Source: Corbicula japonica (taxonomy: Eukaryota > Mollusca > Bivalvia > Venerida > Cyrenidae). Taken from it: 64,000 nt of DNA. Position numbers and translations under genes: made by a program. Of the stretch, positions 7,416 to 51,246 are shown one piece after another. The stretch is taken from the NCBI GenBank assembly GCA_038501625.1, contig JAZAYU010000006.1, positions 11,082,181 through 11,146,180 of the forward strand, written 5' to 3'. The stretch's first letter is position 1, and every line of letters begins with the position of its first letter. The notes beneath the pieces were generated by a model, which ran no database searches, was not told the DNA's origin, and worked only from the letters and a program-made list of their open reading frames with translations.

Positions 7416-7421
7416 ATATCA

Positions 7422-15395: not shown

Positions 15396-16930
15396 TAGTT
15401 ACGTGATGCCATGGTTTGTTAGAGAGTGCCAATGGCCCAGCATCTCCGATTTTAACTCTCTAGGTTGATTAGGGTTACCTCTCCCGAAGCCTTTGTCGAC
15501 CCAACGACTGACCACAAGACAATGGTGTTTTTGGAAGGGTTGTCCCCCTTGGTTTGAAATAAGAGTTTTCCTTCTCCTAGACAGACTGCCTTCCCTGGCT
15601 AACGAGCTCCATCTACCCGAAGCAGTGGTTATGGCGCCACAGGTCCGCCTTCGTCCCTTCTCCTGTTAGTAGTAGCAGGTCCGCCGGGCTAGTTACAAGC
15701 CACGCGTGCAGGCCAGGAGCTGGACTTGGTAGTCAGAGGCTATATTTTACGCAAGCCATTGGGAGCACTTTTTAAGCAATGGGAGCTTATCCAACATTGC
15801 CACCCCCGGCGATGACAACCCTTGGAACCCAGGCAAACAAGTACAAGTCGCTCCCAGATCACCCCATGAGGAACAGGCTTGAGGGATTCACCAAGAACCG
15901 CCTTAAGCGCTCCAGCTTTGTAAATGAAGCAAAGAAGCTGAATAGAGAGTACGCCTCTGAACTAAACATACAGACAATTCCCTTGGGCCGAGCAGACATC
16001 ACCAACCCTACAGCCAATGACCTGTCTGCAGTGAAAGTGGCACTTGCTATTCCTGGACTTGACATGGGCAAACAAGAAAATGAGACCATCCGTAGAAGTC
16101 TGACACTTGCGACTATCTACGCAGACTATCCTTTAGACAGATGGACCCATGTATATACAGATGGGTCAGCCACTAGAGCTATTAAGGATGGAGGCGCTGG
16201 TATTCATATAACATTCCCGTCAGGCCAGAAATCGGCCCATTACATTGCCACTGGGAAGCACTGTAGCAACTACAGAGCAGAGACTGAAGCGCTCATGAAG
16301 GCAGTGTCTCTGATTGAAGACTCAGCAGAAGAGGTTACCTCTGTAGTCTTCCTCACAGATGCAAGATCAGTTCTGGAGGCTCTGCAAAGCAACAATGTTC
16401 CTGAACTAGCACAAGCCATGAACAAGCTTGGGTCTTCCCGCAATGTTGCCCTTCAGTGGATACCATCTCACTGTGGAGTGCCCGGAAATGAGGAGGCTGA
16501 CAAGCTGGCTAGGTTAGGAGCCCAGTTAGAGCAACCAGATAACCAGGTGACATACAAGGAGAAAGCCACCATCATCAAGGCTCTCACAAAGACCAGACAG
16601 GAAGCAGATGCCTACCACATGTTAAACAGACCAGAGCAGGTGGTGATGGTGAGGTTACGCTCAGGGCATGACAGACTGAATGCACACATGTGTAGGAAGT
16701 ATAAATTGGTGCCATCCCCAATATGTCCCTGCGGAGAAGAGGACCAGACTGCAGAGCACATCCTCCAACGATGTAAACGATACGAACAGGACCGAGAAGC
16801 AACGTGGCCACAAGGTGCAACAATCCAGCAGAAACTGTATGGAGATGTTGACGACCTACGGAGGACCACAACTTTCATCGCGGATGCTGGAGTGGTCGTG
16901 TAGAGCGAACGAAAAGAAGAAGAAGAAGAA
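15396..16930 (+). mobile_element. RNase H-bearing LINE fragment
   Basis: Sits inside the BEL 5' LTR. Its bounds are given by comparison with the intact LTR at 10385-10395. The 11-bp sequence GAGCACCGGCG is duplicated with one change on the other side. The 3' tail is (AAG)n at about 16913-16930. It carries only the end of a pol gene, so it is either 5'-truncated or a non-autonomous derivative with its own leader (15396-15778, GC-richer than the surroundings). Confidence 0.85.
15779..16903 (+). CDS. Ribonuclease H domain protein of a non-LTR retrotransposon
   Basis: 374 codons, open. The RNase H fold occupies roughly residues 120-245. Its acidic residues are all present: Asp in VYTDGSA, Glu in NYRAETEAL, Asp in FLTDARSV and the Asp of NEEADKLARLGA after WIPSHCGVPG. 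This enzyme removes RNA from RNA-DNA hybrids during reverse transcription. A C-terminal Cys/His motif (CPCGEEDQTAEHILQRC) follows, as in I- and Jockey-type LINE pol proteins. No reverse transcriptase precedes it. The first Met at 15779 is the only reasonable start in frame. An intact frame in a nested insertion suggests it is younger than its BEL host. Confidence 0.85.
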   Translation: MGAYPTLPPPAMTTLGTQANKYKSLPDHPMRNRLEGFTKNRLKRSSFVNEAKKLNREYASELNIQTIPLGRADITNPTANDLSAVKVALAIPGLDMGKQENETIRRSLTLATIYADYPLDRWTHVYTDGSATRAIKDGGAGIHITFPSGQKSAHYIATGKHCSNYRAETEALMKAVSLIEDSAEEVTSVVFLTDARSVLEALQSNNVPELAQAMNKLGSSRNVALQWIPSHCGVPGNEEADKLARLGAQLEQPDNQVTYKEKATIIKALTKTRQEADAYHMLNRPEQVVMVRLRSGHDRLNAHMCRKYKLVPSPICPCGEEDQTAEHILQRCKRYEQDREATWPQGATIQQKLYGDVDDLRRTTTFIADAGVVV

Positions 16931-18009: not shown

Positions 18010-18877
18010 ATAGGCATACGCTAGTTTACAGACACGTTCATAAAAAGTTAGAATTGACTTGCCTTTTCCTGTAAAAAACGAATTCAGAAGAGATTGTGAA
18101 GATCTCCGCAAAACATGGTATTTAATCTTTGTCTTAAATGAAGCGGCACATATTGAAATCTCCTCTGTTTGTGTCACTTTAATTGAGGTATGAATAATTT
18201 GTGCCACAATTATAACAACATATCCAACAGGGACTGAACTTGCGAGTTGTACCGCTTGGTTAGTTTTGCGAATCAATTAATGTTAATGTTTGTGCTTTCG
18301 AAAGTTTTGCTATATTTTTTCTAGTTTTCGAGTTATTTCTACGCGCATAATTAACATTTTACAGTAACGAATGACCCTGCTTTGCAGCCGCATTTATTTC
18401 GAGATTTGATGACAAGTGTCGGGTCGGCTGACCTGTTAATGTTCATAATCAAACAATTTCATAATTTAGTCAATTCTATTCGTCTGCTATACCTTTTTAA
18501 CGATAAAGAGGTTGTGCCCGTCTCTGCATATCTTTGTCTGAAATGAAGGGGTACTTAGAGGCTTATTTCCGATTTGTGTGTTTTCACTCGAGTGATAACT
18601 ATTTAGTGTCATAATGATAACTCGCTGCTCCCGTTCCCCCACTCCTACCCTGATAGCTCGGTTGCCGAAACTTGTGGATAGATCTGCTCAGCTAGTTTTA
18701 ATTATGGACTACTGTTCTGCGATAAATGCTTGTATTGTGGCTAATTATTTATAAAGTTTAAGAAACATTTGGAAACAAACAGTTCAGTTCATATATCGGA
18801 CAAGCTGAAAATAGAAATAGTGCAAAGAAGCTTAAACTTTTTTGAAAGTGGAGGAAATATCGAGAAAATGGCACTGA
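18010..18877. other. Stretch without a recognised gene
   Basis: A 91-codon minus-strand frame at 18001-18276 is unrecognised and lies partly in repeat. Nothing else is supportable. Confidence 0.4.
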
Positions 18878-18879
18878 TA

Positions 18880-20225
18880 CGAGGGGCATTTATAAAGTAC
18901 AAGTATTAATCAGTGTGATTGTTTAACGGTAATCCGAATGAAATTTCTACATGTTATACATGTATGGAAAGCTTAGCCTCCTCTACAGTTACGTGCACGA
19001 GAAAACCGGGTAAAAAAATCGTTACAGTGATTGAAATCTTTACTTGAATCGACCGAGGTCAGATACACTGCAGTTAAAATGGCAGACAAAGAGAACAAAT
19101 TTCAAGATGAGCAAAGAGCTTATTGTAAAGTACGCGCATTGCTCGGCGTTGCTGCACCTGATATTAAAGCAGACTTAGACAAGGTTTATGGGGACTGTGC
19201 TCTCTCATATTCCACGGTTAGAAGGTGGGTTCGCCTTTTTAACTCTGGTAGGGAGGATACAAAAGATGAGGCCCGTCCTGGCCGTCCAGTGACCACAATG
19301 ACTGACGAAAATATTGCCGCTGTTAAAAAAGCTGTGGAAGATGACGCCCGTTGTACAGTCGAGGAGATAAGTGATTTATGTGGCATTAATTCGTCATCGG
19401 TTTTTCAAATATTGACGCGCGTGTTAAAGCTACGCAAGGTTTGCGCCAGGTGGATACCCCACCTCCTCACTGATGATCAAAAGCACGAGCGTGTGCGAAT
19501 AGCGTCCCAGCTGCTTGATACATACAAGAATGCTGACCAAAAACGCATGAATGAAATTGTGACTGGCGATGAAACGTGGGTATATTTTTATGAGCCTGAC
19601 AGTAAACAAAAAAATAAGGTGTGGGTCGGTGAAAATGATGGATGGCCCCAAATTGCCCGTAGAGCTCGCACCTCAAAACGCATTATGTATGCATTATTTT
19701 TCGATTGCCAGGGAATGGTGGCTCGAATTCCTGTACCAGAAGGTAGGAGTGTTACTGGAACATTTTACCGAGATTCGGTACTTGTTGCTGTTGTATGCCA
19801 CTATACTGCAGACCGTCCCCGTACCGGCGTACGCGGAATCAAGCTCCTGCATGACAACGCACCGGCCCACAAGTCAGCGGTGGTAACGTCGAATCTTAGC
19901 GACAACAACATTGATACTTTACCACACGCTCCATATAGCCCTGATCTTGCTCCATGCGATTTTTGGTTAAATCCCTTTATTAAGAACTACATGAGAGGTC
20001 GACGTTTTGAATCCCGGCACGCCGTCGGCAGCGCGCTTTTCCAGTGTCTTAACACTATACCCAAAGAAGCATTCCGAAAAGCATTTTCTGATTGGATTAA
20101 ACGTTTGTAAAAGTGCATACAAGTCAAAGGGGAATACTTTGAAGGGTTGATCTAAAAATTTAAGCAGAAATATTACGTATACAACTAAAGCGCCACACTG
20201 ATTAATACTTTATAAATGCCCCTCG
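18880..20225 (+). mobile_element. Mariner transposon, complete copy
   Basis: Inverted termini begin CGAGGGGCATTTATAAAGTA on the left and match the right end for about 32 bp, except that the left arm has a 5-bp insertion (ACAAG). TA is duplicated at 18878-18879 and 20226-20227. It carries a full-length transposase. A second copy is at 23064-24396. Confidence 0.95.
19079..20110 (+). CDS. Mariner transposase (DD34D)
   Basis: About 343 codons from this Met, the usual mariner length. An in-frame Met lies 16 codons upstream (19031). The N-terminal half has two helix-turn-helix regions (SYSTVRRWVRLFNSG; TVEEISDLCGINSSSVFQIL) that bind the termini. The WIPHLLTDDQK motif links to the catalytic domain. 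Catalytic residues are Asp in VTGDETWVYF, Asp in LLHDNAPAH and a third Asp in YSPDLAPCDFWL, 34 residues after the second. This is the mariner spacing. It acts in the nucleus, cutting the element out and inserting it at TA. No stop or frameshift is present, so the copy could be functional or only recently silenced. Confidence 0.95.
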   Translation: MADKENKFQDEQRAYCKVRALLGVAAPDIKADLDKVYGDCALSYSTVRRWVRLFNSGREDTKDEARPGRPVTTMTDENIAAVKKAVEDDARCTVEEISDLCGINSSSVFQILTRVLKLRKVCARWIPHLLTDDQKHERVRIASQLLDTYKNADQKRMNEIVTGDETWVYFYEPDSKQKNKVWVGENDGWPQIARRARTSKRIMYALFFDCQGMVARIPVPEGRSVTGTFYRDSVLVAVVCHYTADRPRTGVRGIKLLHDNAPAHKSAVVTSNLSDNNIDTLPHAPYSPDLAPCDFWLNPFIKNYMRGRRFESRHAVGSALFQCLNTIPKEAFRKAFSDWIKRL

Positions 20226-20227
20226 TA

Positions 20228-20540
20228 TCTAGCTGGATAACTTCAAACTGCGCCTGGCCCTGTAATTCCGACGACGTAACCAATTGAGCTAACCGAGACA
20301 ACCCCAAAAGAAGGTTTGATCGGATAGCCCTGATAGACTTAATCATTACTGCACGACATCGATAACGGGTTATTTTACTGATAATAGTACTGACTATATG
20401 TACGGGGATACTTTTTAAGGCCGCCACACTGCACAAATAATGCTATTGTGAATTTCAAATGATATTGCTTCTACCTGGGAGCGAACTCGCACCGTCACGG
20501 CGACAGCACATAGCCCTGCATAGATAATTGTCAAGATAAT
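20228..20540 (-). other. tRNA-derived relics
   Basis: Reading the minus strand, CTCGGTTAGCTCAATTGGTTA at about 20285-20305 looks like a tRNA A box. It is followed by CGTCGGAATTACAGG, as in a tRNA-derived SINE head. GTGCGAGTTCGCTCCCAGG at about 20475-20495 resembles a B box. Neither folds convincingly as a tRNA; I treat them as SINE-type relics. Confidence 0.45.
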
Positions 20541-22299: not shown

Positions 22300-23061
22300 C
22301 AGCCGGTAATATGTTCAATCATAAGAACAAAAACTTTCGAATAGCAGGAGGAAATTGTCCAAATCGTTTCTACAAAAACTGACAAAGAAACGTCAAAGAG
22401 GTTTTTTTAAATACACTTTGTATGACATATGCAGTATTTGACATGTGTTAACTCAACAATTGTATACATTTTTATCTCTGTCACAGTAAATATGAAATAA
22501 AAAATATTTTCAAAGTTTTGATTTCATTGTTTTTATTCTTATTGGCTGTGTGTGTATGTTTTGTTGGTTCGTCAATTCCTTTATAAAGCTATGTAACTTA
22601 TGTAATATGGGCAATTTTGACTTAAAATTGGATTATCAGTTTTATGAGGTTTTGGTTCAGTTTTCACGCAATAAAATCAAAGCAATTGCTCAGACAGATT
22701 CACGTTAGAAATAAAAATAAACTATAATATTATTCTATTCAAATTTTGTACTGAGATTAATTGCTTCAGAATAATGGGTACACGAAACATGATACTTGAA
22801 ATATCTAATTCACTTTTCAATATGAAATTATTTACTCTTCAATATCAACGTAGAGTTGTTTGTGCCATTCTGTGGCCATGTGCTTTCGGTATGCAGACTT
22901 GCATACTTTTTTTGCTAACTATTTAACATATATTTTCGGCCCCTTCTTAAGCCCTCTCTTTAATATGTGTTTTTATAAAGTTAACATTGTAACGCATGTG
23001 ACTCTGATAAACAGTTATCGTACTTGCTTAGTTATTACCTACTTATTTTTTATTCATTTAA
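22300..23061. other. Stretch without a recognised gene
   Basis: AT-rich spacer; nothing supportable up to the second mariner. Confidence 0.4.
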
Positions 23062-23063
23062 TA

Positions 23064-24396
23064 CGAGGGGCATTAATAAAGTATTAATCAGTTTGATTGT
23101 TTAACGTTAATCCGAAAGAAATTTCTACATGTTATACATGTATGGAAAGCTTAGACTCTCCTCTACAGTTACGTGCACGAGGAAACCGGGTAAAATCGTT
23201 ACAGTGATTGAAATCTTTACTTGAATCGACAAAGGTCAGATACACTGCAGTTAAAATGGCAGACAAAAAGAAAAAAATTCAAGATGAGCAAAGAGCTTAT
23301 TGTAAAGTACGCGCATTGCTCGGCGTTGCTGCACCTGATATTAAAGCAGACTTAGACAAGGTTTATGGGACTGTGTTCTCTCGTATTCCACGGTTAGAAG
23401 GTGGGTTCGTCTTTTTAACTCTGGTAGGGAGGATATAAAAGATGAGGCCCGTCCTGGCCGTCCAGTGACCACAATGACTGACGAAAGTATTGCCGCTGTT
23501 AAAAAAGCTGTGGAAGATGATGCCCGTTGAACAGTCGAGGAGATAAGTGATTTATGTGGCATTAATTCGTCATCGGTTTTTCAAATATTGACGCGCGCGT
23601 TAAAGCTACGCAAGGTTTGCGCCAGGTGGATACCCCACCTCCTCACTGATGATCAAAAACGCGAGCGCGTGCGAATAGCGTCCCAGCTGCTTGATACATA
23701 CAAGAATGCTGACCAAAAACGCATGAATGAAATTGTGACTGGCGATGAAACGTGGGTATATTTTAATGAGCCTGACAGTAAACAAATAAGGTGTGGGTCG
23801 GTGAAAATAATGGACGGCCCCAAATTGCCCGTAGAGATCGCACCTCAAAACGCATTATGTATGCATTATTTTTTGATTGCCAGGGAATGGATGCTCGAAT
23901 TCCTGTACCAATAGGTAGGAGTGTTACGGGAACATTTTACCGAGATTCGGTACTTGCTGCTGTTGTATGCCACTAAACTGCAGACCGTCCCCGTACCGGC
24001 GTACGCCGAATCAAGCTCCTGCATGACAACCACCGGCCCACAAGTCAGCGGTGGTAACGTCGTATCTTAGCGACAACAACATTGACACTTTACTACACGC
24101 TCCATATAGCCCTGATCTTGCTCCATGCGATTTTTGGTTAAATCCCTTTATTAAGAACTACATGAGAGGTCGACGTTTTGAATCTCGGCACGCCGTCGGC
24201 AGCGCGCTTTTCCAGTGTCTTAACACTATACCCAAAGAAGCATTCAGAAAAGCATTTTCTGATTGGATTAAACGCTTGGAAATGTGCATACAAGTCAAAG
24301 GGGAATACTTCGAAGGGTTGATCTAAAAATTTCAGCAGAAATATTACGTATACAACTAAAGCGCCACACTGATTAATACTTTATAAATGCCCCTCG
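23064..24396 (+). mobile_element. Mariner transposon, inactive copy
   Basis: Same family as 18880-20225, with TA at 23062-23063 and 24397-24398. The left terminus lacks the 5-bp insertion found in the other copy, so its two arms pair better. The coding part is broken. Confidence 0.95.
23256..24326 (+). pseudogene. Mariner transposase pseudogene
   Basis: Aligns along its whole length with the intact transposase at 19079-20110. Breaks seen: loss of one G in TATGGGACTG (about 23367), a TGA in GCCCGTTGA (about 23527) where the other copy has TGT, loss of four A/T bases at AAACAAATAAGG (about 23783), a TAA in CACTAAACTG (about 23973), and loss of one G in GACAACCACC (about 24026). The original stop is also lost, so the last frame runs on to 24326. 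It cannot make transposase but keeps both termini. Confidence 0.95.
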
Positions 24397-24475
24397 TAAC
24401 TTGGGACCTATGTACTCGATCAATAAATTCATGGCTGAATACATGCAAGAAAAAATGGAAAAGATATGTTTTATT

Positions 24476-27745: not shown

Positions 27746-27754
27746 TTCAATTTC
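27746..27754. repeat. Target-site duplication, left (TTCAATTTC)
   Basis: Nine bases identical to 40592-40600, directly abutting the two ends of the 12.8 kb foldback element. Confidence 0.9.
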
Positions 27755-27776
27755 ATGTGTGTGAAGTTGGCTCTAC

Positions 27777-30688
27777 GTTCGACGCTCGACGTTCGACATT
27801 CCAATTGCAGTTCGACGTTCGACATTCAAATTACAGTTCGACGTTCGACATTCAAAACCAGTTCGAGGTTCGACATTCAAAACCAGTTCGACGTTCGACA
27901 TTCAAAACCAGTTCGACGTTCGACATTCAAAATGCAGTTCGACGTTCGATATTCAAAACCAGTTCGACGTTCGACATTCAAAATGCAGTTCGACGTTCGA
28001 CATTCAAATTGCAGTTCGACGTTCAACATTCAAAATGCAGTTCGACGTTCGACATTCAAAACCAGTTCGACGTTCGACATTCAAAACCTGTTCGACGTTC
28101 GACATTCAAAATGCAGATCGACGTTCGACATTCAAAACCAGTTCGACGTTCGACATTCAAAATACAGTTCGATGTTCGACATTCAAAACCAGTTCGAATT
28201 CGACATTTAAAATGCATTTCGACGTTCGATATTCAAAACCAGTTCGATGTTCGACATTCAAAATGCAGTTCGACGTTCGACATTCAAAACCAGTTCGACG
28301 TTCGACATTCAAAATGCAGTTCGACTTTCGACATTCAAAACCAGTTCGACGTTCGACATTCAAAATGCAGTTCGACGTTCGACATTCAAAATGCTGTTCG
28401 ACGTTCGACATTCAAAATGAGGTTCGACGTTCGACATTCAAACCGAGTTCGACGTTCGACATTCAAAACCAGTTCGACGTTCGGCATTCAAAATGCAGTT
28501 CGACGTTCGACATTCAATACAAGTTCGATGTTCGACATTCAAAACCAGTTCGACGTTCGACATTCAAAATGCAGTTCGACGTTCGACATTCAAATGCAGT
28601 TCGACGTTCGACATTCAAAACCAGTTCGACGTTCGACATTCAAAACCAGTTCGACGTTCGACATTCAAAATGCAGTTCGACGTTCGACATTCAAAACCAG
28701 TTCGACGTTCGACATTTAAAATGCATTTGGACGTTCGACATTCAAAACCAGTTCGACGTTCGACATTCAAAATGCAGTTCGACATTCAAAATCAGTTCGA
28801 CATTCAAAATGCAGTTCGACATTCGACATTCAAAACCTGTTCGGCGTTCGACATTCAAAACCAGTTCGACGTTCGACACTGAAAATGCAGTTCGACGTTC
28901 GACATTCAAAACCAGTTCGACGTTCGACATTCAAAATTCAGTTTGACGTTCGACTTTCAAAACCAGTTCGAAGTTCGACATTCAAAATGCATTTCGACGC
29001 TCGACATTCAAAACCAGTTCGACGTTCGACATTCAAAATGCAGATCGACGTTCGACATTCAAAACCAGTTCGACGTTCGACATTCAGAATGCAGTTCGAC
29101 GTTCGACATTCAAAACCAGTTCGATGTTCGACATTCAAAATGCAGTTCGACGTTCGACATTCAAAATGCAGTTCGACGTTCGACATTCAAAATGCAGTTC
29201 GACGTTCGACATTCAAAATGCAGTTCGACGTTCGACATTCAAAACCTGTTCGACGTTCGACATTCAAAACCTGTTCGACGTTCGACATTCAAAATGCAGA
29301 TCGACGTTCGACATTCAAAACCAGTTCGACGTTCGACATTCAAAATGCAGTTCGATGTTCGACATTCAAAACCAGTTCGACGTTCGACATTTAAAATGCA
29401 TTTCGACGTTCGATATTCAAAACCAGTTCTACGTTCGACATTCAAAATGCAGATCGACGTTCGACATTCAAAACCAGTTCGACGTTCGACATTCAAAATG
29501 CAGTTCGACTTTCGACATTCAAAACCAGTTCGACGTTCGACATTCAAAATGCAGTTCGACGTTCGACATTTAAAACCAGTTCGACGTTCGACATTCAAAA
29601 TGAGGTTCGACTTTCGACATTCAAACCCAGTTCGATGTTCGACATTCAAAACCAGTTCGACGTTCGGCATTCAAAATGCAGTTCGACGTTCGACATTCAA
29701 TACAAGTTCGATGTTCGACATTCAAAACCAGTTCGACGTTCGACATTCAAAATGCAGTTCGACGTTCGACATTCAAATGCAGTTCGACGTTCGACATTCA
29801 AAACCAGTTCGACGTCCGACATTCAAAACCAGTTCGACGTTCGACATTCAAAATGCAGTTCGACGTTCGACATTCAAAACCAGTTCGACGTTCGACATTT
29901 AAAATGCATTTGGACGTTCGACATTCAAAACCAGTTCGACGTTCGACATTCAAAATGCAGTTCGACATTCAAAATCAGTTCGACGTTCGACATTCAAAAT
30001 GCAGTTCGACGTTCGACATTCAAAACCTGTTCGGCGTTCGACATTCAAAACCAGTTCGACGTTCGACACTGAAAATGCAGTTCGACGTTCGACATTCAAA
30101 ACCAGTTCGACGTTCGACATTCAAAATTGAGTTTGACGTTCGACTTTCAAAACCAGTTCGAAGTTCGACATTCAAAATGCATTTCGACGTTCGACATTCA
30201 AAACCAGTTCGACGTTCGACATTCAAAATGCAGATCGACTTTCGACATTCAAAACCAGTTCGACGTTCGACATTCAGAATGCAGTTCGACGTTCGACATT
30301 CAAAACCAGTTCGACGTTCGACATTCAAAATGCAGTTCGACGTTCGACATTCAAAATGCAGTTCGACGTTCGACATTCAAAATGCAGTTCGACGTTCGAC
30401 ATTCAAAATGCAGTTCGACGTTCGACATTCAAAATGCAGTTCGACGAACGACATTCAAAACCAGTTCGACGTTCGACATTCAAAATGCAGTTCGACGTTC
30501 GACATTCAAAACCAGTTCGACGTTCGACATTCAAAATGCTGTTCGATGTTCGACATTCAAAACCAGTTCGACGTTCGACATTCAAAATGCAGTTCGATGT
30601 TCGACATTCATAACCAGTTCGATGTTCGACATTCAAATGCAGTCCGACGTTCGACATTCAAAACCAGTTCGACGTTGGACATTCAAAT
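27777..30688 (+). repeat. 25/26-bp tandem array, left arm
   Basis: Unit TTCGACGTTCGACATTCAAA ending either ACCAG (25 bp) or ATGCAG (26 bp). The two forms often alternate, giving a 51-bp dimer. Three diagnostic variants recur 1183 bp apart (28481/29664, 28721/29904, 28227/about 29411), showing a higher-order block duplicated in tandem. Each unit has three CpG in an otherwise CpG-poor region. Because the unit lacks stops, long open frames appear in several frames on both strands; they are a by-product of the repeat. Confidence 0.95.
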
Positions 30689-30702
30689 TTTTTTTTGAGT
30701 AA

Positions 30703-31280
30703 CTGATGTGTACCTGTATTCCGAATGCAAGTGACTGTTTTTAAACCATTTTGAAGGAATATGGTGCAGTTGCTTAAGAAGGGCCAATTTTACTTTGAAA
30801 ATTTTTGGTTAACTTTTAGTGACTAGAAATTATCCGCACTGAATTTTTTTGACTCGGGAAGTTATGTTCAGGCGATAGCCGGAAGTGATCAGGAATAGAC
30901 CATGTTGGGGTGATCCGGAACTACCCAGTTTCAGTATTTTTATTGAAAATAACGCAATTTCACGTCTTATTCTAAAGCGACTAATGTTTATATTTATTTC
31001 AAATGCAAGTGCCTGTTTCTTTGACCATATTGAATGATTATGGTAAAGTTGCTAAAGTATGGCCAATTTTACCTTGTAAATACTAGGTTACCTTTAAGTG
31101 ACCGGAAATTATTCGGATGTACTGTTTTTAACTAGGAAAGTAATGTTCAGTCGATGGCCGGAAGTGATCCGGAATAGACAATGTAAGGGTGATTCGGAAC
31201 TACCCGTTTTCTGGTTTTTAGTTGAATTTAACGAAATGTCTTAATTTACCCAAACATTAATCCGTACCTATATTCCGAAT
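30703..31280. repeat. Tandem dimer of a ~277-bp unit
   Basis: Copies begin near 30711, 30989 and 31265 with TACCTGTATTCCGAATGCAAG or a close variant; the third is only a start. Shared blocks include GGCCAATTTTAC and GCCGGAAGTGATC. It borders the left array on its inner side. Confidence 0.8.
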
Positions 31281-33988
31281 GCAAGTGACTTAATTACTCT
31301 CTCTCACTCTATTTCTAGACATAATCTGAAATCTGGAAGAAGTGTTCAGGCATTATAGTCTCTGTAAATCGTGCCACTTCCACTCCATTGAATCAAATGA
31401 TGTAGTAATAACGGACTGAACCTCAAAAAGTAATTGTGTGCATGGATATACTCCCTGGGAATTGTACAAATACGAATAATCGATAAATTCAATTTTCCGC
31501 TTATAGTATTGTCAAAACGAAGCATATAATTTCAATCAACATTCATATTTACAGATAACGCATTGTGTACGCAGACTTTCAAGTTTGTTGCATTCTTGCT
31601 TTCACTTCAATTTGGTGATGGTTGTGAGGGGTGGCGGGGGGATTTGGTTAAGAAATACTTATACCGTGGTATGGTGTGACTTGTGCGAACGTTATTTCGT
31701 TTAAAAAAATGATATCTTTTTAGTAACGATTTAAAGAAGAAAAATGCACCAGTGCCGTCAGTGGTGGATAAATCTGAACATTAGTCTATTTTTTACCTCG
31801 AAATGCTGCCTAAAAATAAAAGATTCTACGTTTATTGTTTTGAGATCAAGTAATAATTATACATGCATCTTATGCTTTTAAATAAAAAAAATATGAGACT
31901 ATTTTCATGTCATATCCTGGTTTTGATGTCAGCACAGGAATATGGCACATTTTGTGTCTATATAGACCCTATATTGATTAGGTTTATTAGGGCTTTAAAG
32001 ACAAATTAAAAAATTATCAACACCAGCATGCGCGCCGAGGCTAGTGCTTATCAATATACAATGCATAGAGAAGTCGTTTTGTATGTGATAATTCGTAACT
32101 CTCTTCTACCTCTTCCAAAGAAATAATGTACACATCTGCAATGCACAAAATCCGTTGACGATTATAGTAGAATGACAGATCCGCTCATCATAACTCTGTT
32201 TGAGGAACGCGAATTTTCGAATTTATTCATCAAATTTGGCTTGTTTTTTTTTACTGACGATGACTCCAGCATGAATCCGAAAACAGTTTTTCTAATAGTA
32301 GTTTGTTTTGATATTTACCTTCAAAGTTAGCTATCAATGCCAGTTTTCTGTAGTGACGTCAACGACGCTCACCGAACACTTTTTCCAGGCTTGCAGAAAA
32401 GTGGGGTTTTCAATTGCATTTGTTGAATTTACGGACCCATAAACTCAGTTTTGTAAATTTATTTTTTGAATATAAACCGGTCAGTTGACAGGGGACGATG
32501 GTTTTATCCCCCACTTCAGATATTCAATGTAAAAAATTGTGGTCTCAGTCAAGGACTGGGATGCGATTCATTTGTTCTTTCACATATGAATTGCCGCTGA
32601 AAATACCTTTCCAGTGATGTAAGATTTAACTTTGTGGACCGCTAAACACCGTTTTCGCGTTTAACATAACGCCGCATTTTGCCTTTTTTCTGTCAACTTT
32701 TCAAAATCGTGAAAATTTCCCGAATTAATTTTTGATTGTTTTACTTAAAACGTTTTAAAAAGCAATGCCAATCGAATAAGAGAATAAAATTTGGGGGTCA
32801 TCGACTTTGTTATTGTGCTATTACCATTTAAAGTACCCATATTATTAACTCCGTCAAAAGACACCACAGAGGATGTTGAATTGATTGATCATATAAAAAT
32901 GACATCAAATCGATTGCTCTTTGTTTTTAATTTTGTCAAAAATATCTTGTAAAAATGCTAAAAACAAACATTCCAAAAAGCGTATGATACTATCGTCATT
33001 TCTTTGTACTTATAATTTTATAAACTTTGCTGTTTCTTTGGAAGTTATAGACATTTGAATAAAACTGTTCAAATCTTTAGTCTATGCACCTAATAGAAAT
33101 AGTGTAGCGCCTAAATTTGTTTGCGGTGACGCGTAAAATAATTTTTTTTTTTAATATTTTTTTTCGTAGGCCAAGCAGATCTATAAAAATATCTATCAAT
33201 TCTACGTGCCTTATTTTGTCTTGTAAAAAGTTTAAGGGATGACAAAAAAATAAGCTGTTCGTATGTTTGATTTTCCCAATTATTTTATGCAAATATATAC
33301 CTTTTGGGGGTTGTAAGCTGCGATTTCAAATGGTTGACATTGATTACAATTTCAGCGTTTACTTACAACGTCAGTATGTTGTTTTATTGTTCCATAATGG
33401 GGTGCTCTTAGGGTACGTATGTACCGAGAGCTATTCCATTTATCCACATACATTGCACTTCTTATTGTGCAAATTTTAAATTCGTTAATGACTGATCGAA
33501 GTGTTCAATTTTTTTCTCATAAAATCGTCTAAAAAGTATAGCAAAAGAAGAGATCGTCAAGTTGTTAGTGGTATGTTGCTTGTCAGTGACGATGGGAATC
33601 GCACACCGTAAGAAACCACAAAACCGATGTGAAGGCCTCGGCACTGAGGTATGGAATACGCCCTCCGTTTTCTTGTTTTAATGTACTTTCGCGATAACGG
33701 CTGCGACACGCACACTGACCGCGCAAACTGTGGTTCCTGTACATGTCTGTTTCTTGCCTGCCATAGATTGCTAAAAATGTATAAGAACGGCGATTCCACG
33801 CCTGTATGTCGTGTCTGCGGTTATGCGCAGTATGCGATTTTCACTGTCACGACAATCTGCTTAGAAAGGTACCACGAAACTAAGCAGCATCAGACAAAGA
33901 AAATTGCTGTAAAATTGATTTAGAAAGAATCGGAATTTTTTAACCCTTTCCTATCTATACACGCCTTTTCTCGCATACAGCAAACAAC
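31281..33988. other. Foldback interior without a recognised gene
   Basis: AT-rich. Short frames such as 33557-33799 (minus) and 33651-33923 (plus) overlap each other and show no domain. Nothing resembling a transposase was seen. Confidence 0.5.
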
Positions 33989-33989
33989 A

Positions 33990-34207
33990 AAATGCAGGTT
34001 ATTTTCATAGATTTTTCTTCTCAGTGCCACATCCGGAAATCCCCGACGATTTTGTTCGGAGCGTTCTGATTGGTCGAAATATTGACTTAGTCCGGGAAAT
34101 AGTTTGCACACAAATCGTTCGACCAATCAGAACGCTCCTAAAAAAGCGTCGGGGATTTCCGGAAGTGGCACTAAGGAGAAGAATCTATGAAAAAATAACC
34201 TGCATTT
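33990..34207. repeat. Snapback repeat with ~88-bp arms
   Basis: Left arm from AATGCAGGTTATTTTC to CGTTCTGATTGGTCGAA. The right arm is its reverse complement with a few changes, separated by about 40 bp. A miniature foldback or MITE nested in the large element. Confidence 0.85.
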
Positions 34208-34686
34208 CGGAGGCCGTTTTCTGTTAAATATTACGCGTAATTCGAGCTTTTGGTGAGACCTTTTGACATTTAATGTTAGATCAGACCCAGCTGCGTTGAA
34301 CCACAGCTGTCAGGTTGGAACCCCCCGTATTGTAGGAAAAACAGCCTCTCGAACGGGGGTAGAGTCTGGAGCCGTTCCTGACCAATATTCAATTATATAC
34401 ATAGAATATACATTTTTTAAACTACGATTTTAACGGTGTATTTTCGAATATTTTGATAGAATGGAATAATATTATTGACTTGACACCAATTTTACAAAAA
34501 AACCAACAAAAAACAAGGGCGTATAAGTAAGGGTTGGCAAGTGGGGGGCTGGTCACGCGCCAGTGGTTTTTTATCTACTTCGAAAATGCTCAGTGTGTCA
34601 ATAAACTTTGATATGCGGCAAAACAATTTGCATAACGTCGGAGCCAGTCGCAAAATCGTGCATGTACAAAGACAATTTTATTACTA

Positions 34687-36046
34687 CAGTCCAGTCGCGA
34701 TACTACGAATAGGCATCGGACCAAGCCGATTATTCGTAGTATCGCATTTTTCGTAGTATCGCATTTTTGACATTTGGTTGTTGATACCGTCGCAAATCGT
34801 CAATGTCGTTATATGACGTAATGTGTTATTGCTGTTATATGTCAAGGTCAATAAATAAAAAGGCAAATAGAACATTTCGATGTATTTTATTGTGAAATCA
34901 TGGATCAATCAATACATTTAAATAAATAGCACATTTTTAAATTACATAAAAATCTCCCATTGCTTCACTGCCTCTGTGTTTGTGGCGACATCTTTCGATT
35001 CACCGCACACAGATTTGAATGCAATGTCATTGCGATCCTTGAATCGCGTCAGCCAGCCTTTTTTAGCATCAAAGTCTTCAATGCCTAGGCTTTTAGCAAA
35101 CTGGTTTGCCTTTTCTAGCATTATAGCCCCTGATATAATCGCACCTTGGTCACGTGCACTGCTGAACCATTTGAGAAGAGCTGTTTCCAACTCTTCCCAT
35201 TTACCCGTCTTCAGTGACTTTCGTTTCGGACCAAACTCAAGATAGCCAGATTTGATTTTGTCTGCATTGTCTACCCAAGTAGCCAACGTGCTTGGACTAA
35301 TGCCTAGTTCTTTAGCGATAGCTGTTTGTTGACGCCCCTTTTCAACTTCTATAATAGCCTGGTATTGAACTCAATAGTACGCACCTTTCGTCGCTTTACT
35401 CCCGTTTTTCCCGTCGCGGACATTTCCTATCCAGCTATCCTCCCGGTTGACCCGGTCCCTTCACTGGATTACTAGGAAATCGTAAATTGATAAAATTCTG
35501 ATTCAGCTATCCTCCCAGTTAAAAACCGAGCCCTTCACTGAATTGCTCAGAATGCCGATATCAATTTACTGAAATATTAACTAAGATTCGCCATAGGAAT
35601 AAGATCATGCAGAATTAAATTGCAGAAGTAGAATGACAATCAACACAATTGTTTTAGATTATATACAAGTTTAAACCTTTGACATTAAATCACTCAAACT
35701 GTTTGTTACAAGCAAACACGCCCGCTGATTGCTTACAGAGCATATCGTGTCACAACAGCTTGGGTCGATAATTGCTCAACAATACAAATCACGGATATCG
35801 CTTGAAAAGGTGTGAAAATCACCCGTCAGACCGAAATTCGTTAAATTGCATCCTTGTTACACTGTAAATCAGCTGAAGGGACTGTCATAATTATTCGTTA
35901 TATCGCATTTTTCGTTAAATCGCGTCTTCGTTGTATCGCATCTTTTTTATATTGAATAAAGAAGGAATTCGGACGGGACCGGCCGCCCAATTCGTAGTAC
36001 ACCGTTATTTCGTAGTATCGCGATTCGTAAAATCGCGACTCGACTG
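34687..36046 (-). mobile_element. Pogo-type transposon with only the DNA-binding part
   Basis: Termini CAG(TC)(C/G)AGTCGCGAT are inverted, with TA at 34685-34686 and 36047-36048. Both ends carry iterated TTCGTAGTATCGC or TTCGT.ATCGC motifs, probably transposase-binding sites. About 60-bp AGCTATCCTCCC repeats lie near 35435 and 35507. At 1360 bp it is shorter than full pogo elements and lacks the DDE domain. Confidence 0.85.
34942..35423 (-). pseudogene. Pogo transposase N-terminal DNA-binding region
   Basis: Minus strand from ATG at 35423 (MSATGKTGVKRRKVRTIE). A frameshift near 35370 (beside AATACCAGG) moves the frame to the helix-turn-helix YQAIIEVEKGRQQTAIAKEL and GISPSTLATWV, the CENP-B/Psq-type domain. 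A second domain follows (EELETALLKWFSSARDQGA, FDAKKGWLTRFKDRNDIAFK), the Tc5-type helix-turn-helix. A stop comes after QWEIFM, with an AATAAA shortly downstream. No catalytic domain follows before the terminus. Apart from the one shift the DNA-binding part is well preserved. Such a protein would bind termini without cutting. Confidence 0.8.
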
Positions 36047-36153
36047 TATTACAGTAGTATCATTATATTTCGACGGGACCAGTATTCGCACATAAGCCAT
36101 TGCGGTGCCATTTGCCCAGTTATATTTATTTTAGAAGCTTAATATTTTAGCAT

Positions 36154-38690
36154 TGTTGAACCGAAATTTTCACAGCACATATTTGGCCATTTTCGTACGA
36201 AATCGTCACACGTGTGAAAAATTCGTACCAGTTCTTCACATACGTGTGAAAATTTCGTACGAAAATGGCCAAAAATGTGCTGTGAAAATTTCGAGGCCTA
36301 TTTTCTAACCACCACTAGGTATCAACGAATTTTTCACATAATTATGTGACACATTCCTACGTCTTGCACACATGACTATGTTATGAAGTTAAATCCTGAA
36401 AACTATAATTGTTACTGTTAGCTCTTTAGATTTACATGATTTCTCAGCATTTGAAAATATCTCTAGCTCCTCGGTATCGTGCATTTTTGATGCATGGAAT
36501 CGCTCCTTTGCTCGGGAAAGCATAATTTAAACAAGATGCAACAATAAAGGACCTATAAGTCGTATTGCATTATATAGGAAGTCAGTATAGATATTTTCCT
36601 AGTTCAATCAGGTAGATGCAATATAATTTTGTAAAATGAGAATTTGTAAGAATGTAATCTTGACGTAATCGTAATTTTCGTCAAGCAAACGTCACGCGAC
36701 GAATCGCAATGTTGCGTGTTGTATCGTAAAGTGACGATGTTGTATTGCAATTAAGCAATATCGTATCGCGTTTTTACATGTCGTGCGCTGGGCGACGCAC
36801 GCAATGCGATACGACATGTCGACATTTTCCGAATTTCGTATCGGATTGTCATGCGCTGTATCACCATGTTGCGATGTCTTATCGCACTTACGCTGTCGCT
36901 AGTCGCATAATTATGTGGTATTTACGGAGAGATGTCGTTTTAGAATTTATTAAGAGGTTGTATTTCAATATTATGGAACTAAACCGCAGTCGATCAGTCT
37001 GACACCATTTGACAGACCGGACACATCAATTTGTAAGGATGACCTTCAAACATCGACATTTTCAAATAAATACCTTCTGCAGCGTTTCGGGCCATTAAAT
37101 TTGTGACGCTGTGTATACCCGGAGGCGGCCCTGCAGTGGGATCAAACCACAACATGTCGATGTAAATAACCACAGACAAAATGTCAAATTAAAGGGATGT
37201 AACGCATATAGCAAACTGAGCCAGGCTCATAGTCCAAGGAGGACCAGAATAAATAACTACCCTGAAGTGGTGACGGGGAATGTCACGCGACAACTCGATA
37301 TCGCATCATTGTGATATTACACACGACATTCTCAAACGAAGTTATGAGTATTTCAAAACCTTTATGATATCCATATATCATTATTATATTTCCTGCCAAT
37401 TATGTGATTAGTGTAATCTTATTGATAATGGTGGCAGAGCTTGTGAATCGAGCTAGCCTCTCCTTAAAATTAATTAATTTCACTTAATATGTTCTAAATT
37501 ACTTTGAATATATAGTGGGCAAAGCTTCGAATTCCCGCCAAAACTAATAAGTAAACAAATCTTAATGAATAAGTACACCAATTTTGACAACTTTACAGTG
37601 ATTTTTGGACGAAAATCAGGTTGTAGTCTAATGCAAAGGTTGACATTATTTCAGCCGTTTGATGATCTTACCGGCTCTTTTTTCAAGCAAGTCTTTGTAC
37701 ATTGCCGATTTTTGAAATCAAAGATTTCTGAGTGTGTTGTGTATACCTTCAAAGTCCTTCGGTACCTTTCAAATTTGGCGGGAATTGTGACGACTGTCTT
37801 AAGGCGGGGCCAGGAAAGAAAGAACAACGACCTGCATAACCAAACTTCATCAGTTCAGAGAGTCACTCCGAGGAGAGAATATTCATGGTTATAACGTAAG
37901 TGTTATGTAGATTTTTAATTAATTAATTGCACCCGAAAATATACATGTACTATATAAAGTACTAGTATATTGAATGTGTCTTAATACATAAGTGTTTTCC
38001 TGATCACTGCCTCGCTTTGTATCTTTATACTTGTAGCTATTATGGTGAAATGATAGATTTTGTCTTTTAATACGCCCGAAGGGACGATTTATGTAATGGC
38101 GCTGGTCGTCCGTCCGTCAGTTCGTCCGTCCGTCCGTTTTATGTCCGGACTCATTTCCCAGAAACCATTTGAGCTAGCTTCATGAAACTTGGTATGTAGA
38201 TACAGGGCAATATAAGGATAATGTTCGTCATTTTGATTTTTCTAAGTTTGAGGCTTGCTGTGAGAAAACCAGAAAACTTTGAAAAAAAATGCACATCATG
38301 TCCGGACTCATCTCTCAGAAACCATAGTAGCTAGCTACATGAAGTGTGCTAGGTAGATAGAGGATAATACAAGGATTAGGTCAGCAATTTTGACTTTTAC
38401 GGATTTGATCCTTGTTGTGCGAAAACTAGAAAACTTTGTAAAATAATGCACATCCACCAGTGATTTATGTCCAGGCTCATATCTCAGAAAATTTATCAGC
38501 TAGCATCATGAAACCTGGTATGTAGATAATGGGCAATACAATGATGATACCCGTCATTTTGATTTTTCCCGATTTGAGCGTTACTGCGAGAAAACTGGAA
38601 AATAATGAAAAATAATTCACATCCATCAGTGATTAATGTTCAGACTCCTTTCTCAGAAACTATATGAGCTAGCTTTATGAAACCTGGTAT
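36154..38690 (+). mobile_element. Deletion derivative of the Ginger-like element (inverted copy)
   Basis: Begins TGTTGAACCGAAATTTTCAC and matches, as reverse complement, the right 2.5 kb of the element at 43977-51246. Shared blocks include the CGTACGAAAATGGCC palindromes, a GCGATACGACATGTCG-rich stretch, AAGCTTCGAATTCCCGCC and the CGTCCGTCCG run. The integrase end is missing, and similarity ends inside the satellite at about 38690. It lies wholly within the 12.8 kb foldback element. A 109-codon frame at 37565-37894 has a decayed counterpart in the other copy and no recognised domain. Confidence 0.75.
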
Positions 38691-39010
38691 GTGGATAGAA
38701 TGTAATACAAGGATGATGCCCGTCATTATGATCTTTCCTCATTTTAGCCTTGCTGTGAGAAATCGAGAAAACTTTGAAAAATAATGCACATCAATTAGTG
38801 ATTTATGTCCGGACTCATATCTTACAAACCATATGAGCTAACTTCATAAACCTGATATGTAGATAGAGGGCAATACAAAGATGGCCAGTCATTATGATTT
38901 TTCCACTCTTGAGACGTGCTCTGAGAAAACCTGAACACTTCGAAAAATATGCACATCCGTCAGTGATTTAGTCCGTATTCCTATCCCATAAAGCGTATGA
39001 GCTAGCTTCA
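38130..39010 (+). repeat. Satellite of ~170-bp units
   Basis: About five units marked by GTCCGGACTCAT, GAGCTAGCTTCATGAAAC and TGAGAAAAC. The same satellite in reverse is at 48775-49310. It begins after a CGTCCGTCCG microsatellite. Confidence 0.8.
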
Positions 39011-39084
39011 TGTCCGTTAGACCATCCATCCATATATCCATCCATCCATACATACATACACCCACCCATCTGTATGTCACGGAT

Positions 39085-39625
39085 CGTGTCCGCTCTGTAT
39101 GTCTTGAACCCCATGATGGATTTTCAAATAACTTTGCACAAAAATTAATCTTCATTGTATCAAGACGATGTGCAGAACATAGGTTCGAGCTACCTAAGTT
39201 CAAGGTCAATGTCACATGGGCCCTTCAATGGTCATCAGGCATTTTTGTATGTCCGCTCTGTATCTCTTGAACCCTTTGAAGGATTGTCAAATAACTTTGG
39301 ACTAATGTTGATGACGATGACCAATGATGATGTGCAGAATCAAGGTTCCAGCTACCTAAGGTCAAGGTCACAGGGGCCCTCCAATGGTCACTTGGCGTTG
39401 TTGCGTGTCCGCTTTGTATCTCTTGAACCCCTAGAAGGATTTTCAAATAACTTTGCACAAATGTTCACTGTATCAAGACGATATACAGAACCAAGGTTCA
39501 AGCTACCTAAATTCAAGGTCAAGGTCACAGGGGCTGTCCAAAGGTCATTAGGCATTATTGTGTGTCCGCTTTGTATCTCTTGAATCCCTTGAAAGATTTT
39601 CAAATAATATTGCACTCATGTTCAC
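39085..39625 (+). repeat. Satellite of ~160-bp units with GGTCAAGGTCAC motif
   Basis: Units start TGTATCTCTTGAACCCC at about 39097, 39261, 39417 and 39574 and include AGGTTC.AGCTACCTAAG and AAGGTCACAGGGGCC. The open frames across it reflect the period and are not genes. Confidence 0.8.
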
Positions 39626-39630
39626 TGTAT

Positions 39631-40568
39631 ACTGCATTTTGAATGTCGAACGTCGAACAGGTTTTGAATGTCGAACGTCGAACTGCATTTTGAATATCTA
39701 ACGTCGAACTGGTTTTGAATGTCGAACGTCGAACTGTATTTTGAATGTCGAACGTCGAACTGGTTTTGAATGTCGAACGTCGAACTGGTTTTTAATGTTG
39801 AACGTCGAACTGCATTTTGAATGTCGAACGTCGAACTGCATTTTGAATGTCGAACGTCGAACTGGTTTTGAATGACGAACGTCGAACTGCATTTTGAATG
39901 TCGAACGTCGAACTGGTTTTGAATGTCGAACGTCGAACTGCATTTTGAATGTCGAACGTGGAAATGGTTTTGAATGTCGAACGTCGAACTGCAATTTGAA
40001 TGTCGAACGTCGAACTGGTTTTGAATGTCGAACGTCGAACAGCATTTTGAATGTCGAACGTCGAACTGCATTTTGAATGTCGAACGTCTTCTGCCTTTTG
40101 AATGACGAACGTCGAACTGGTTTTTAATGTCGAACGTCGAACTGGTTTTGAATATCGAACGTCGAACTGCTTTTTTAATGTCGAACGTCGGACTGGTTTT
40201 GAATGTCGAACGTCGAACTGCATTTTGAATCTCGAACTGGTTTTGAATGTCGAACGTCCAACTGCATTTTGAATGTCGAACGTCGAACTGGTTTTGAATG
40301 TCGAACGTCGAACTGCATTTTGAATGTCGAACGTGGAAATGGTTTTGAATGTCGAACGTCGAAATGCATTTTTAATGTCGAACGTCGAACTGGTTTTGAA
40401 TGTCGAACGTCCAACTGCATTTTGAATGTCAAACGTCGAACTGGTTTTGAATGTCGAACGTCGAACTGCATTTTGAATGTCGAACCTCGAACTGGTTTTG
40501 AATGCCGAACGTCGAACTACAATTTGAATGTCGAACGTCGAACTGCAATTTGAATGTCGAACGTCGAA
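39631..40568 (-). repeat. 25/26-bp tandem array, right arm
   Basis: Same unit as 27777-30688, in reverse orientation, about one third as long. Its outer end matches the outer end of the left array monomer by monomer. A few degenerate units lie near 40085-40100 (CGTCTTCTGCC). Frames read on the minus strand here have the same sequence character as those of the left array. Confidence 0.95.
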
Positions 40569-40591
40569 CGTAGAGCCAACTTCACACACAT

Positions 40592-40600
40592 TTCAATTTC
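40592..40600. repeat. Target-site duplication, right (TTCAATTTC)
   Basis: Second copy of the 9-bp repeat at 27746-27754. Confidence 0.9.
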
Positions 40601-48774: not shown

Positions 48775-49310
48775 TATAAAGCTAGCTCATATAGTTTCTG
48801 AGAAATGAGTCTGAACATTAATCACTGATGGGTGTGCATTATTTTTCAAAGTTTTCTAGTTTTCTCGCAGTAACGTTCAAATCCGGAAAAATCAAAATGA
48901 CGGGTATCATCACTGTATTGCCCCCTATCTACAAACCAGGTTTCATGATGCTAGCTCATATATTTTCTGAGATATAAGCCTGGACATAAATCACTGATGA
49001 ATGTGCATTATTTTACAAAGTTTTCTAGTTTTCGCACAGCAAGGCTCAAATCCGTAAAAGTCAAAATTGCTGACATAATCCTTGTATTACCCTCTATCTA
49101 CCTAGCACACTTCATGTAGCTAGCTACTATGGTTTCTGAGATACGAGTCCGGACATGACGTGCATTACTTTTCTGGTTTTCTCACAGCAAGCCTCAAACT
49201 TAGAAAAATCAAAAATCAACATTTTCCTAACATTGCCCTGTATCTACATTCAAAGTTTCATGAAGCTAGCTCAAATGGTTTCTGAGAAATGAGTCCGGAC
49301 ATAAAACGGA
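48775..49310 (-). repeat. Satellite of ~170-bp units inside the Ginger-like element
   Basis: Reverse of the satellite at 38130-39010, about three to four units, next to a CGGACGGACG run at 49305-49335. Confidence 0.8.
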
Positions 49311-49335
49311 CGGACGGACGTACGGACGGACGGAC

Positions 49336-51100
49336 GACCAGCGCCATAACATAAATCGTCCCTTCGGGCGTATTAAAAAACAAAAGCTATCATTTCACCA
49401 AAATAGCTACAAGTATAAAGATACAAAAGCGAGGCACTGATCAGGAAAACACTTGTGTATTAGGACACATGTAATAAACTAGTACTTTATATAGTACATG
49501 TATATTTTCAGGTGCAATTAATTAATTAATGAAAAATTTACATAACACTTACGTTATAACCATGAATGTTCTCTCCTCGGAGTGACTCTCTGAACTGATG
49601 AAGTTTGGTCATGCAGGTCGTTGTTCTTTCTTTCCTGGCCCCGCCTTAAGACAGTCGTCACAATTCCCGCCAAACTTTAAAGGTACCGAAGGACTTTGAA
49701 GTCATACACAACACACTCAGAAATCTTTGATTTCAAAAAGCGGCAATCTACAAAGACTTGCTTGAAAAAAGAGCCGGTAAGATCATCAAACGGCTGAAAT
49801 AATGTCAACCTTTGGATTAGACTACAACCTGATATTCATCCAAAAAATCAATGGAAAGTAGTCAAAATTGGTGTACTTATTTATTAAGATTTGTTTACTT
49901 ATTAGTTTTGGCGGGAATTCGAAGCTTTGCCCACTATATATTCAAAGTAATTTAGAACATATTAAGTGAAACTAATTAATTTAAGGAGAGGCTCGCTCGA
50001 TTCACAAGCTCTGCCACCATTTTCAATAAGATTACACTAATCACATAATTGGCAGGAAATATAATAATGATATTTGAATATCATAAAGTTTTGAAATACT
50101 CATAACTTCGTTTGAGAATGTCGTGTGTAATATCACAATGATGCGATATCGAGTTGTCGCGTGACATTTCCCGTCACCACTTCAGGGTAGTTACTTATTC
50201 TGGTCCTTACCATGAGCCTGGCTCTGTTTCCTAGATGCGTTACTTCCCTTTAATTTGACATTTTGTCTGTGGTTATTTACATCGACATGTTGTGGTTTGA
50301 TCCCACTGCAGGGCCGCCTCCGGGTAAACACAGCGTCATAAATTTAATAGCCCGAAACGCTGCCGGAGGTATTTATTTGAAAATGTCGATGTTTGAAGGT
50401 CATCCTTACAAATTGGTGTCAGACTGATCGACTGCGGTTTAGTTCCATAATATTGAAATACAACCACTTAATAAATTCTAAAACGACATCTCTCCGTAAA
50501 TACCATATATGCGACTAGCGACAGCGGAAGTGCGATAAGACATCGCAACATGGCGAAACAGCGCATGACAATCCGATACGAAATTCGGAAATGTCGCCAT
50601 GTCGTATCGCATTGCCGTGCGTCGCCCAGCGCACGACATGTAATAACGCGATACGATATTGCTTAATTGCAATACAACATCGTCACTTTACGATACAACA
50701 CGCAAAATTGCGATTCGTCGCGTGACGTTTGCTTGGCGAAAATTAAGATTACGTAAAGATTACATTCTTACAAGTTCTCATTTTACAAAATTATATTGCA
50801 TCTACCTATGATTGAACTAGGAAAATATCTATACTGACTTCCTATATAATGCAATACGATTTATAGGTCCTTTATTGTTGCATCTTGTTTAAATTATGCT
50901 TTCCCGAGCAAAGGAGCGATTCCATGCATCAAAATTCACAATAACCGAGGAGCTAGAGATATTTTCAAATGCTGAGAAATCATGTAAATCCATAAGAGCT
51001 AACAGTAATAATTATATTTTTCAGGATTAACTTCATATCATAGTCACATGTGCAAGACGTAGGAATGTGTCACATAATTATGTGAAAAATTCGTTGTTAC
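49336..51100 (-). other. Non-coding right part of the Ginger-like element
   Basis: Inverted counterpart of 36300-38100. Includes GCGATACGACATGTCG-type sequence around 50600. A 64-codon minus-strand frame (50478-50672) begins MQLSNIVSRYYMSCAGRRT and matches the start of a frame at 36745-37002 in the other copy. The match is explained by DNA homology and I see no domain. Confidence 0.6.
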
Positions 51101-51246
51101 CTAGTGGTGGTTAGAAAATAGGCCTCGAAATTTTCTCAGCACATTTTTGGCCATTTTCGTACGAAATTTTCACAAATATGAGAAATTTTCGTACGAATTT
51201 TTCACACGTGTGACGAATTCGTTTGTGTGAAAATTTCGGTTCAGCA

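Follow-up and report, generated by a model that had tools for sequence, protein, structure and literature searches.

The genome of the bivalve Corbicula japonica contains, in a 64,000-nucleotide stretch of contig JAZAYU010000006.1 (positions 11,082,181 to 11,146,180, referred to here as the window), two arrays of a short tandem repeat that face each other across several kilobases. The question this locus raises is whether the two arrays are the ends of a single mobile element and, if so, what moves it. An earlier note on the window had read positions 27755–40591 as a foldback-type transposon with satellite arrays for termini. The observation behind that note is confirmed and its reading as a foldback-type element is supported: the window element is very probably a non-autonomous copy of a cut-and-paste (DDE-type) foldback transposon family. 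Members of this family move as a unit with a 9-bp target-site duplication, their arms point inwards and their interiors vary.

The 12.8 kb window element at 27755–40591 is bounded by exact inverted tips that match each other over 30 bp, and each strand of the window has a single 19-bp tip, which starts at 27755 on the forward strand and ends at 40591 on the reverse strand. Inside the tips lie the arrays, built of a unit that is mostly 25 or 26 bp long. With up to three mismatches allowed this unit is found 147 times in the window, with 111 copies on the forward strand (27785–30688) and 36 on the reverse strand (39637–40568); there are no further window matches outside both arms, and 100 shuffles gave none. 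Nearly all of the maximal inverted exact 16-mer pairs spaced 200–20000 bp apart in the window (2374 of 2482) fall within the two arrays, and the tip pair is the sole case among the 2482 with a flanking direct repeat of at least 7 bp. The inverted tips, opposed arrays and perfect 9-bp flanking repeat that the earlier note had described are thus all present. Its further claim, that the flanks rejoin to match an unoccupied paralog, also holds, since the joined flanks align without gaps across the junction to 58642–59150, where the target stands in single copy. A second, weaker paralog of the joined flanks lies within 56251–56900.

Within the left arm two stretches recur at offsets of 1190 and 1183 bp, and because these internal copies are about 99% identical the arm appears to have grown recently, by unequal exchange or a similar process. 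Distances between units within and between the arms show no clear separation (p 0.018 for the 25-bp unit and 0.36 for the 26-bp unit). A co-linear order of units in the two arms, hinted at by a first alignment, failed a register control and is not put forward. One ORF (open reading frame) in the array has a weak protein match at 29% identity. A 22-bp core sequence matches one Bacteroidia contig with short 7-bp repeats, which we took as coincidence, and has no matches in the viral contigs searched.

If the window element belongs to a family, its tips should recur in facing pairs, as the earlier note had expected. In the host assembly (1.07 Gb, 1630 contigs) the 19-bp tip has 107 exact matches and a 36-bp tip with up to two mismatches has 132 (66 on each strand), while the reversed controls have none. 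Pair counts rest on 100 listed places for each search. For the 19-bp tip these places give 32 neighbouring pairs less than 50 kb apart, of which 30 are convergent, one lies with both tips on the forward strand and one with both on the reverse strand. One convergent pair measures 92 bp and the other 29 span 4.8–41.8 kb with a median of 17.1 kb, the largest starting at base 1 of its own contig. The places listed for the 36-bp tip add at least four further convergent pairs (C1, C57, C1353 and C1450), and the family has at least a few dozen copies in the genome.

We read 20 of these pairs, namely the window copy, 18 whole pairs and C744 in part (its left tip and 75 bp of adjoining flank, plus 9,980 bp and flank at the right end), leaving out 14 other convergent pairs. 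Perfect 9-bp duplications flank 15 of the 20, the window copy included, so that the duplications looked for at other loci were found; all 15 9-mers differ from one another and their mean G+C content is 22%. Two further pairs, C115 and C45b, match at eight of nine positions. A second empty site besides the window paralog is given by C204, which sits in a minisatellite whose adjacent units carry the uninterrupted target once, the best neighbouring unit differing from the empty target by two substitutions and one deletion in 40 nt. These results bear on a possibility that the earlier note had itself raised, namely that an assembly join has brought the two arrays together; the satellite would then be unrelated, and tip and duplication would be due to chance. 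Assembly of long tandem arrays is difficult, and single arms may have been given a wrong length by it. A join of this kind fails to explain 15 perfect and mutually different duplications, the convergence of 30 of the 32 neighbouring pairs among the listed places, or empty sites at two loci, and we consider it highly improbable.

In the anatomy of the family, a tip of 19–30 bp is followed by arms of 25/26-bp units that point inwards and measure 0.4–11.5 kb in the 18 elements compared. Forward units all lie to the left of reverse units in every whole element above 92 bp (18 of 18), including C45b, whose left arm extends beyond the midpoint and has a gap of about 250 bp in it. The 36 arms of these elements range from 423 to 11,475 bp, with a median of about 2.9 kb. 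C58 is almost wholly arm, with 2.2 and 2.3 kb flanking about 160 bp, and at the right end of C744 there are two array units only, directly after the gene described below. When three consensus units (77 bp) were used as a probe, 2,814 exact matches were found in the genome and none in the control; the first 100, which are those listed, all belong to the left arm of element C1, with none among them in the 20.9 Mb that precede C1 in what is apparently contig order. Arrays lacking the tip, which the earlier note had named as a finding that would count against it, were not seen among these 100 of 2,814 matches. The 92-bp pair (G000:C474:122473-122564) consists of two facing tips with one unit each and has no duplication; it is possibly a recombination or abortive product.

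The arrays might alternatively be satellite carried by a Helentron of the HINE type. Such elements are a known carrier of satellite-like arrays in a bivalve, the Pacific oyster, where the Cg_HINE Helentrons are described as carrying the most abundant dispersed satellite-like arrays, with 13 clusters and 49% of the arrays detected (PMC7492417). The Corbicula family resembles them as transposons that disperse satellite-like arrays. However, HINEs are described as having a central array with no target-site duplication seen (PMC7492417), whereas the Corbicula element has two inverted arms, inverted tips and 9-bp duplications. A Helentron carrier is contradicted by these duplications and was rejected; we give it hardly any probability.

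The interiors fall into two groups, one non-coding and one with a spliced-looking gene that carries the motif series D, D, CxxH, E in two elements. The first group (group I) comprises 14 elements, the window copy included, that have in common a non-coding core of several kilobases. Identity is about 90–96% in most best alignments and reaches 98.7% over 3.5 kb in one pair; the window core is 91–96% identical to the 13 other elements in alignments longer than 1 kb, and C58 retains just short pieces of it. There is no ORF of 150 amino acids or more in the group I core, and the ORF of that length in C750 sits in a nested long interspersed nuclear element (LINE). This apparent LINE (L046:5644-8439) has a 932-amino-acid ORF for an endonuclease and reverse transcriptase. 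Four of the 20 pairs read (C3, C81, C704 and C744) have a distinct common interior (group II). When C3, C81 and C704 were compared with the 14 group I elements C81 alone gave matches. They extend to 753 bp with C224 (78% identity) and to 288 bp with C57 (90%), and the match with C45b covers 206 bp (93%); we take them for probable nested repeats.

Other transposons are nested in the window copy, which is non-autonomous. No Pfam domain was found in its core, and a Pfam search of six frames of the whole interior at E ≤0.1 gave matches at one place only, in a pogo-like element whose ORF at 34945–35370 covers just the DNA-binding part of a transposase. The absence of a transposase claimed in the earlier note therefore stands for the 12.8 kb copy, with the qualification that this DNA-binding fragment is nested in it. 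Insertion of the pogo-like element postdates the core, because the core shared with other elements halts at 34686 and resumes at 36047; it begins exactly at 36047 in 10 of the 11 elements that have the resumed part. From about 36160 to 39630 the interior consists of other repeats and not of family core.

An autonomous partner had been predicted to exist elsewhere, and coding copies were found in C704 and C744, which have 97% identical protein stretches and of which neither is intact. C704 has a run of ORFs at element positions 7033–12886, the upstream part of which consists of coding tandem repeats of 339 and 126 bp, followed downstream by the motifs DSTGS, TDHS, CSAH and NAPVENWF. The repeats with which the candidate gene starts (L049:4677-6936; C704 element positions 7033–10145) have a lysine-rich unit of 42 amino acids. 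A genome search with the middle ORF of C704 gave 38 matches. Besides C704 itself they comprise C744, at 97% identity within an open frame of 1344 amino acids, seven relatives that are 43–53% identical, three of which have stop-free frames of 625–828 amino acids, and matches that are shorter or weaker. Both genome copies more than 90% identical to the ORF lie inside tip-bounded elements. We aligned eight sequences: C744, three relatives from the same genome (L050, L051 and L052) and four from a protein collection (P0005–P0008). D, D, CxxH and E are kept in six of the eight (C744, L050, L051, L052, P0005 and P0008), and the later motifs are missing from P0006 and P0007, which are partial or diverged. 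In Mutator-like elements (MULEs) the DDE core has conserved D, D and E and a C(2)H mark. The C704/C744 protein is likely to be the product of the gene that mobilises the family, and it matched no catalogued protein family.

A second ORF of C704, at element positions 16448–16855, has 26 genome matches. At eight other loci (C34, C36, C37, C24 twice, C45, C1 and C6) such a match follows the DDE match on the same strand, at a distance of 2.6–7.7 kb. Since this pairing recurs, the downstream ORF and the DDE core very probably belong to one spliced gene. The motif HYC...WYDGL is conserved in the downstream exon, and NTCT..NGLTI in the DDE tail of C704, C744, L050, L051, L052 and P0005, while P0008, one of two relatives whose alignment extends to this part, is without the NTC motif. 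Together these motifs resemble the His and Cys boxes of ubiquitin-type peptidases, which is a lead only, and Pfam and the PDB gave no support for a peptidase reading of this exon. Three of the relatives (G000:C34:4370526, C24:2925806 and C37:3404012), at 43–45% identity, have long open frames and the same downstream exon. They adjoin no tip among the tip matches listed, which suggests that they belong to other families. A decayed downstream exon (47% with stops, and 76% in one piece) was found at C16:4965286. A lone right tip stands at C16:4973519, with the exon about 8 kb to its inner side, and this locus is perhaps another old coding copy. Relatives were also sought in viral contigs, and none were confirmed.

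Several observations weigh against a DDE-type foldback family mobilised by this gene. The gene is present in only two of the 20 pairs read; the C704 copy is broken by in-frame stops and a frame break, and in C744 the frame breaks after the E motif and the interior ends before the downstream exons. The seven relatives at 43–53% adjoin no tip among the tip matches listed. The presumed D, D and E were assigned by conservation only, two of the six sequences that bear the motifs, L051 and L052, are near-identical copies, Pfam and PDB searches of the protein returned only matches below the cut-off or chance hits, and the AlphaFold model of the relative P0005 was useless, with a mean pLDDT (predicted local distance difference test) of 39.5. 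At the ends of the elements, the duplication of C744 is just 7 bp, neither C750 nor the 92-bp C474 is flanked by one, and the outer four units of the window arms rank 327th of 3286 placements in the register control.

The scarcity of the gene, together with a group II interior in four of 20 pairs, also fits another explanation, in which the mobilising enzyme is a canonical Mutator-type (MULE or Phantom) transposase encoded elsewhere and the C704/C744 gene is a passenger. There is a precedent in the foldback-like Tm1, which has 9-bp duplications and has been tied to a Phantom/Mutator transposase (PMC3169594). Against this, both copies of the DDE gene above 90% identity sit within tip-bounded elements, and no other DDE-like ORF of 150 amino acids or more occurs in the 19 whole pairs, a comparison in which the genome was not searched for MULE transposases. 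The MULE family is absent from the Pfam matches (E ≤10) of three C704 ORFs and P0005–P0008, the few others all being below the cut-off; Pfam found no THAP or P-element domain, and no PHD finger in scans of the ORFs and of the three forward frames to the right arm of C704, in which the borders of the downstream exon are not fixed. A Mutator-type enzyme acting from elsewhere is in our view unlikely.

For a DDE-type foldback family served by the C704/C744 gene, the following scheme can be proposed. The protein would be a transposase acting in trans that binds the tips and probably the array units too, makes its cut at the tip and inserts this end with a stagger of 9 bp. The arms would serve as multi-site binding platforms, by analogy with Galileo, for which binding has been demonstrated (PMC3688188). 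Interiors may be interchangeable because only tip and units would be needed, and they could disappear, be exchanged or take up other transposons, of which the window copy is an example. The arms would grow and shrink independently by unequal exchange, and growth is directly evidenced by the duplication within the left arm of the window element. Non-coding copies would rely on coding ones, which are rare; both of those found are broken.

In structural class these are foldback elements, with long inverted tandem-repeat termini, a variable middle and a duplication of about 9 bp, a design akin to Tetris, Tm1 and Rehavkus and, according to the earlier note, to FB. Tetris of Drosophila virilis likewise has long inverted tandem-repeat termini and a variable middle. 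Its termini are reported to reach 1,735 bp, with 220-bp repeats and 8–10 bp duplications, and no transposase copy was found in that report (PMC4079207), whereas the Corbicula arms reach 11.5 kb and a candidate transposase is present. Tm1 of root-knot nematodes is described as having composite inverted termini with a variable number of ~14-bp tandem repeats, 9-bp duplications, and many non-coding copies alongside copies with a putative Phantom/Mutator-type transposase (PMC3169594), and in its repeat termini, duplications and mixture of coding and non-coding copies it is like the Corbicula family. The differences are that Tm1 has non-inverted 7-bp end motifs (PMC3169594), while in Corbicula each tip is an exact inverted copy of the other, and no Pfam match of the protein exceeds the cut-off.

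Rehavkus, a Repbase family related to Mutator, is described from Tribolium as Rehavkus-1_TC, of 9.5 kb, with a 9-bp duplication and 164-bp satellite units in inverted termini, in arrays mostly of five and eight monomers (PMC6446971, PMC10218199); the hosts named in PMC6446971 are arthropods and annelids. Judged against this published description, both the 9-bp duplication and the satellite units in inverted termini are found in the Corbicula element, but its units are of 25/26 bp, with up to several hundred per arm, and Pfam gave no PHD finger. The duplication also lies within the 8–11 bp of the Mutator superfamily. Whether the family belongs with Rehavkus or Mutator is not settled: duplication and arms fit, there is no MULE or PHD profile match, and Rehavkus was compared by description only. 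Galileo, of the P superfamily, also has internally repetitive long termini, and the repeats in them are reported to bind the DNA-binding domain of its transposase (PMC3688188). Its duplications are given as 7 bp and its termini as up to about 1.25 kb (PMC3573991). Membership of Galileo or the P superfamily is ruled out by duplications of 9 rather than 7 bp and by the lack of a THAP or P-type domain.

A limited literature search found no prior report of the element in molluscs, of a minisatellite-ended counterpart or of the unit sequence, and a survey of bivalve transposons with profiles of 17 superfamilies does not use the word 'foldback' in its main text (PMC10294476). New here are the satellite-scale arms, the interchangeable interiors, an unclassified candidate transposase and its conserved downstream exon. 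More tentatively, and with less than even probability, the family could represent a separate DDE transposase lineage outside the catalogued superfamilies, with a gene made of coding minisatellites, a DDE core and a downstream exon that is peptidase-like in its motifs only, and with ends recognised through satellite-scale multi-site arms. If this were true, the family would be a generator and carrier of satellite DNA. Each transposition moves kilobases of satellite DNA, one such insertion having landed in or next to a gene of a small family, and a single genome displays the non-coding copies, coding copies, duplications and empty sites of a foldback family. Multi-site binding by long repeated termini is reported for Galileo, and for Foldback and Phantom it is said to be untested (PMC3688188); with arm lengths of 0.4–11.5 kb within one family, the question of a multi-site platform becomes directly testable.

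Features of the window element and of its unoccupied insertion site (window positions)
Feature	Position	Strand	Remarks
Left 9-bp target-site duplication TTCAATTTC	27746–27754		exact copy at 40592–40600; single copy in the empty paralog
Left tip ATGTGTGTGAAGTTGGCTCTACG	27755–27777	+	identical to right tip in inverted orientation; 107 exact genome matches to the 19-bp tip
Left arm, 25/26-bp units	27778–30690	+	111 units; internal duplication at 1183–1190-bp offset, ~99%
Non-coding core (group I)	30703–34686		common to 13 other elements read; blastn of array-masked interiors
Nested pogo-like element	34687–36046	−	inverted ends ~29 bp; TA flanks; HTH_Tnp_Tc5, E 9e-15
Resumed shared core, ~107 bp	36047–36153		present in 11 of 13 other group I elements
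Repeat with terminal 169-bp tandem repeats	36162–39012	+	no relation to the element
157-bp tandem repeats	39086–39622	+	unrelated filler
Right arm, 25/26-bp units in opposite orientation	39631–40568	−	36 units
Right tip	40569–40591	−	exact inverted copy of left tip
Right 9-bp target-site duplication TTCAATTTC	40592–40600		abuts right tip
Unoccupied paralog of insertion site, outside the element	58642–59150	+	joined-flank alignment

Other repeats lie within and around the element. A stretch at 33990–34207, inside the shared core, is palindromic and resembles a miniature inverted-repeat transposable element. The 2.5 kb repeat at 36197–38678 (+) has a copy outside the element at 48776–51222 (−) with 93% identity; its start, GCTGAACCGAAATTTTCAC, is palindromic and recurs at 43977, its opposite end has 169-bp tandem repeats, and it is unclassified. 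Two mariner-like elements, at 18877–20230 and 23061–24401, are 95% identical, the first with an open transposase frame of 359 amino acids (19031–20107) and the second with a shorter open stretch only. Retroelement fragments at 12055–12606 (−), 15776–16900 (+) and 3538–3954 (+) contain integrase, RNase H and reverse transcriptase domains.

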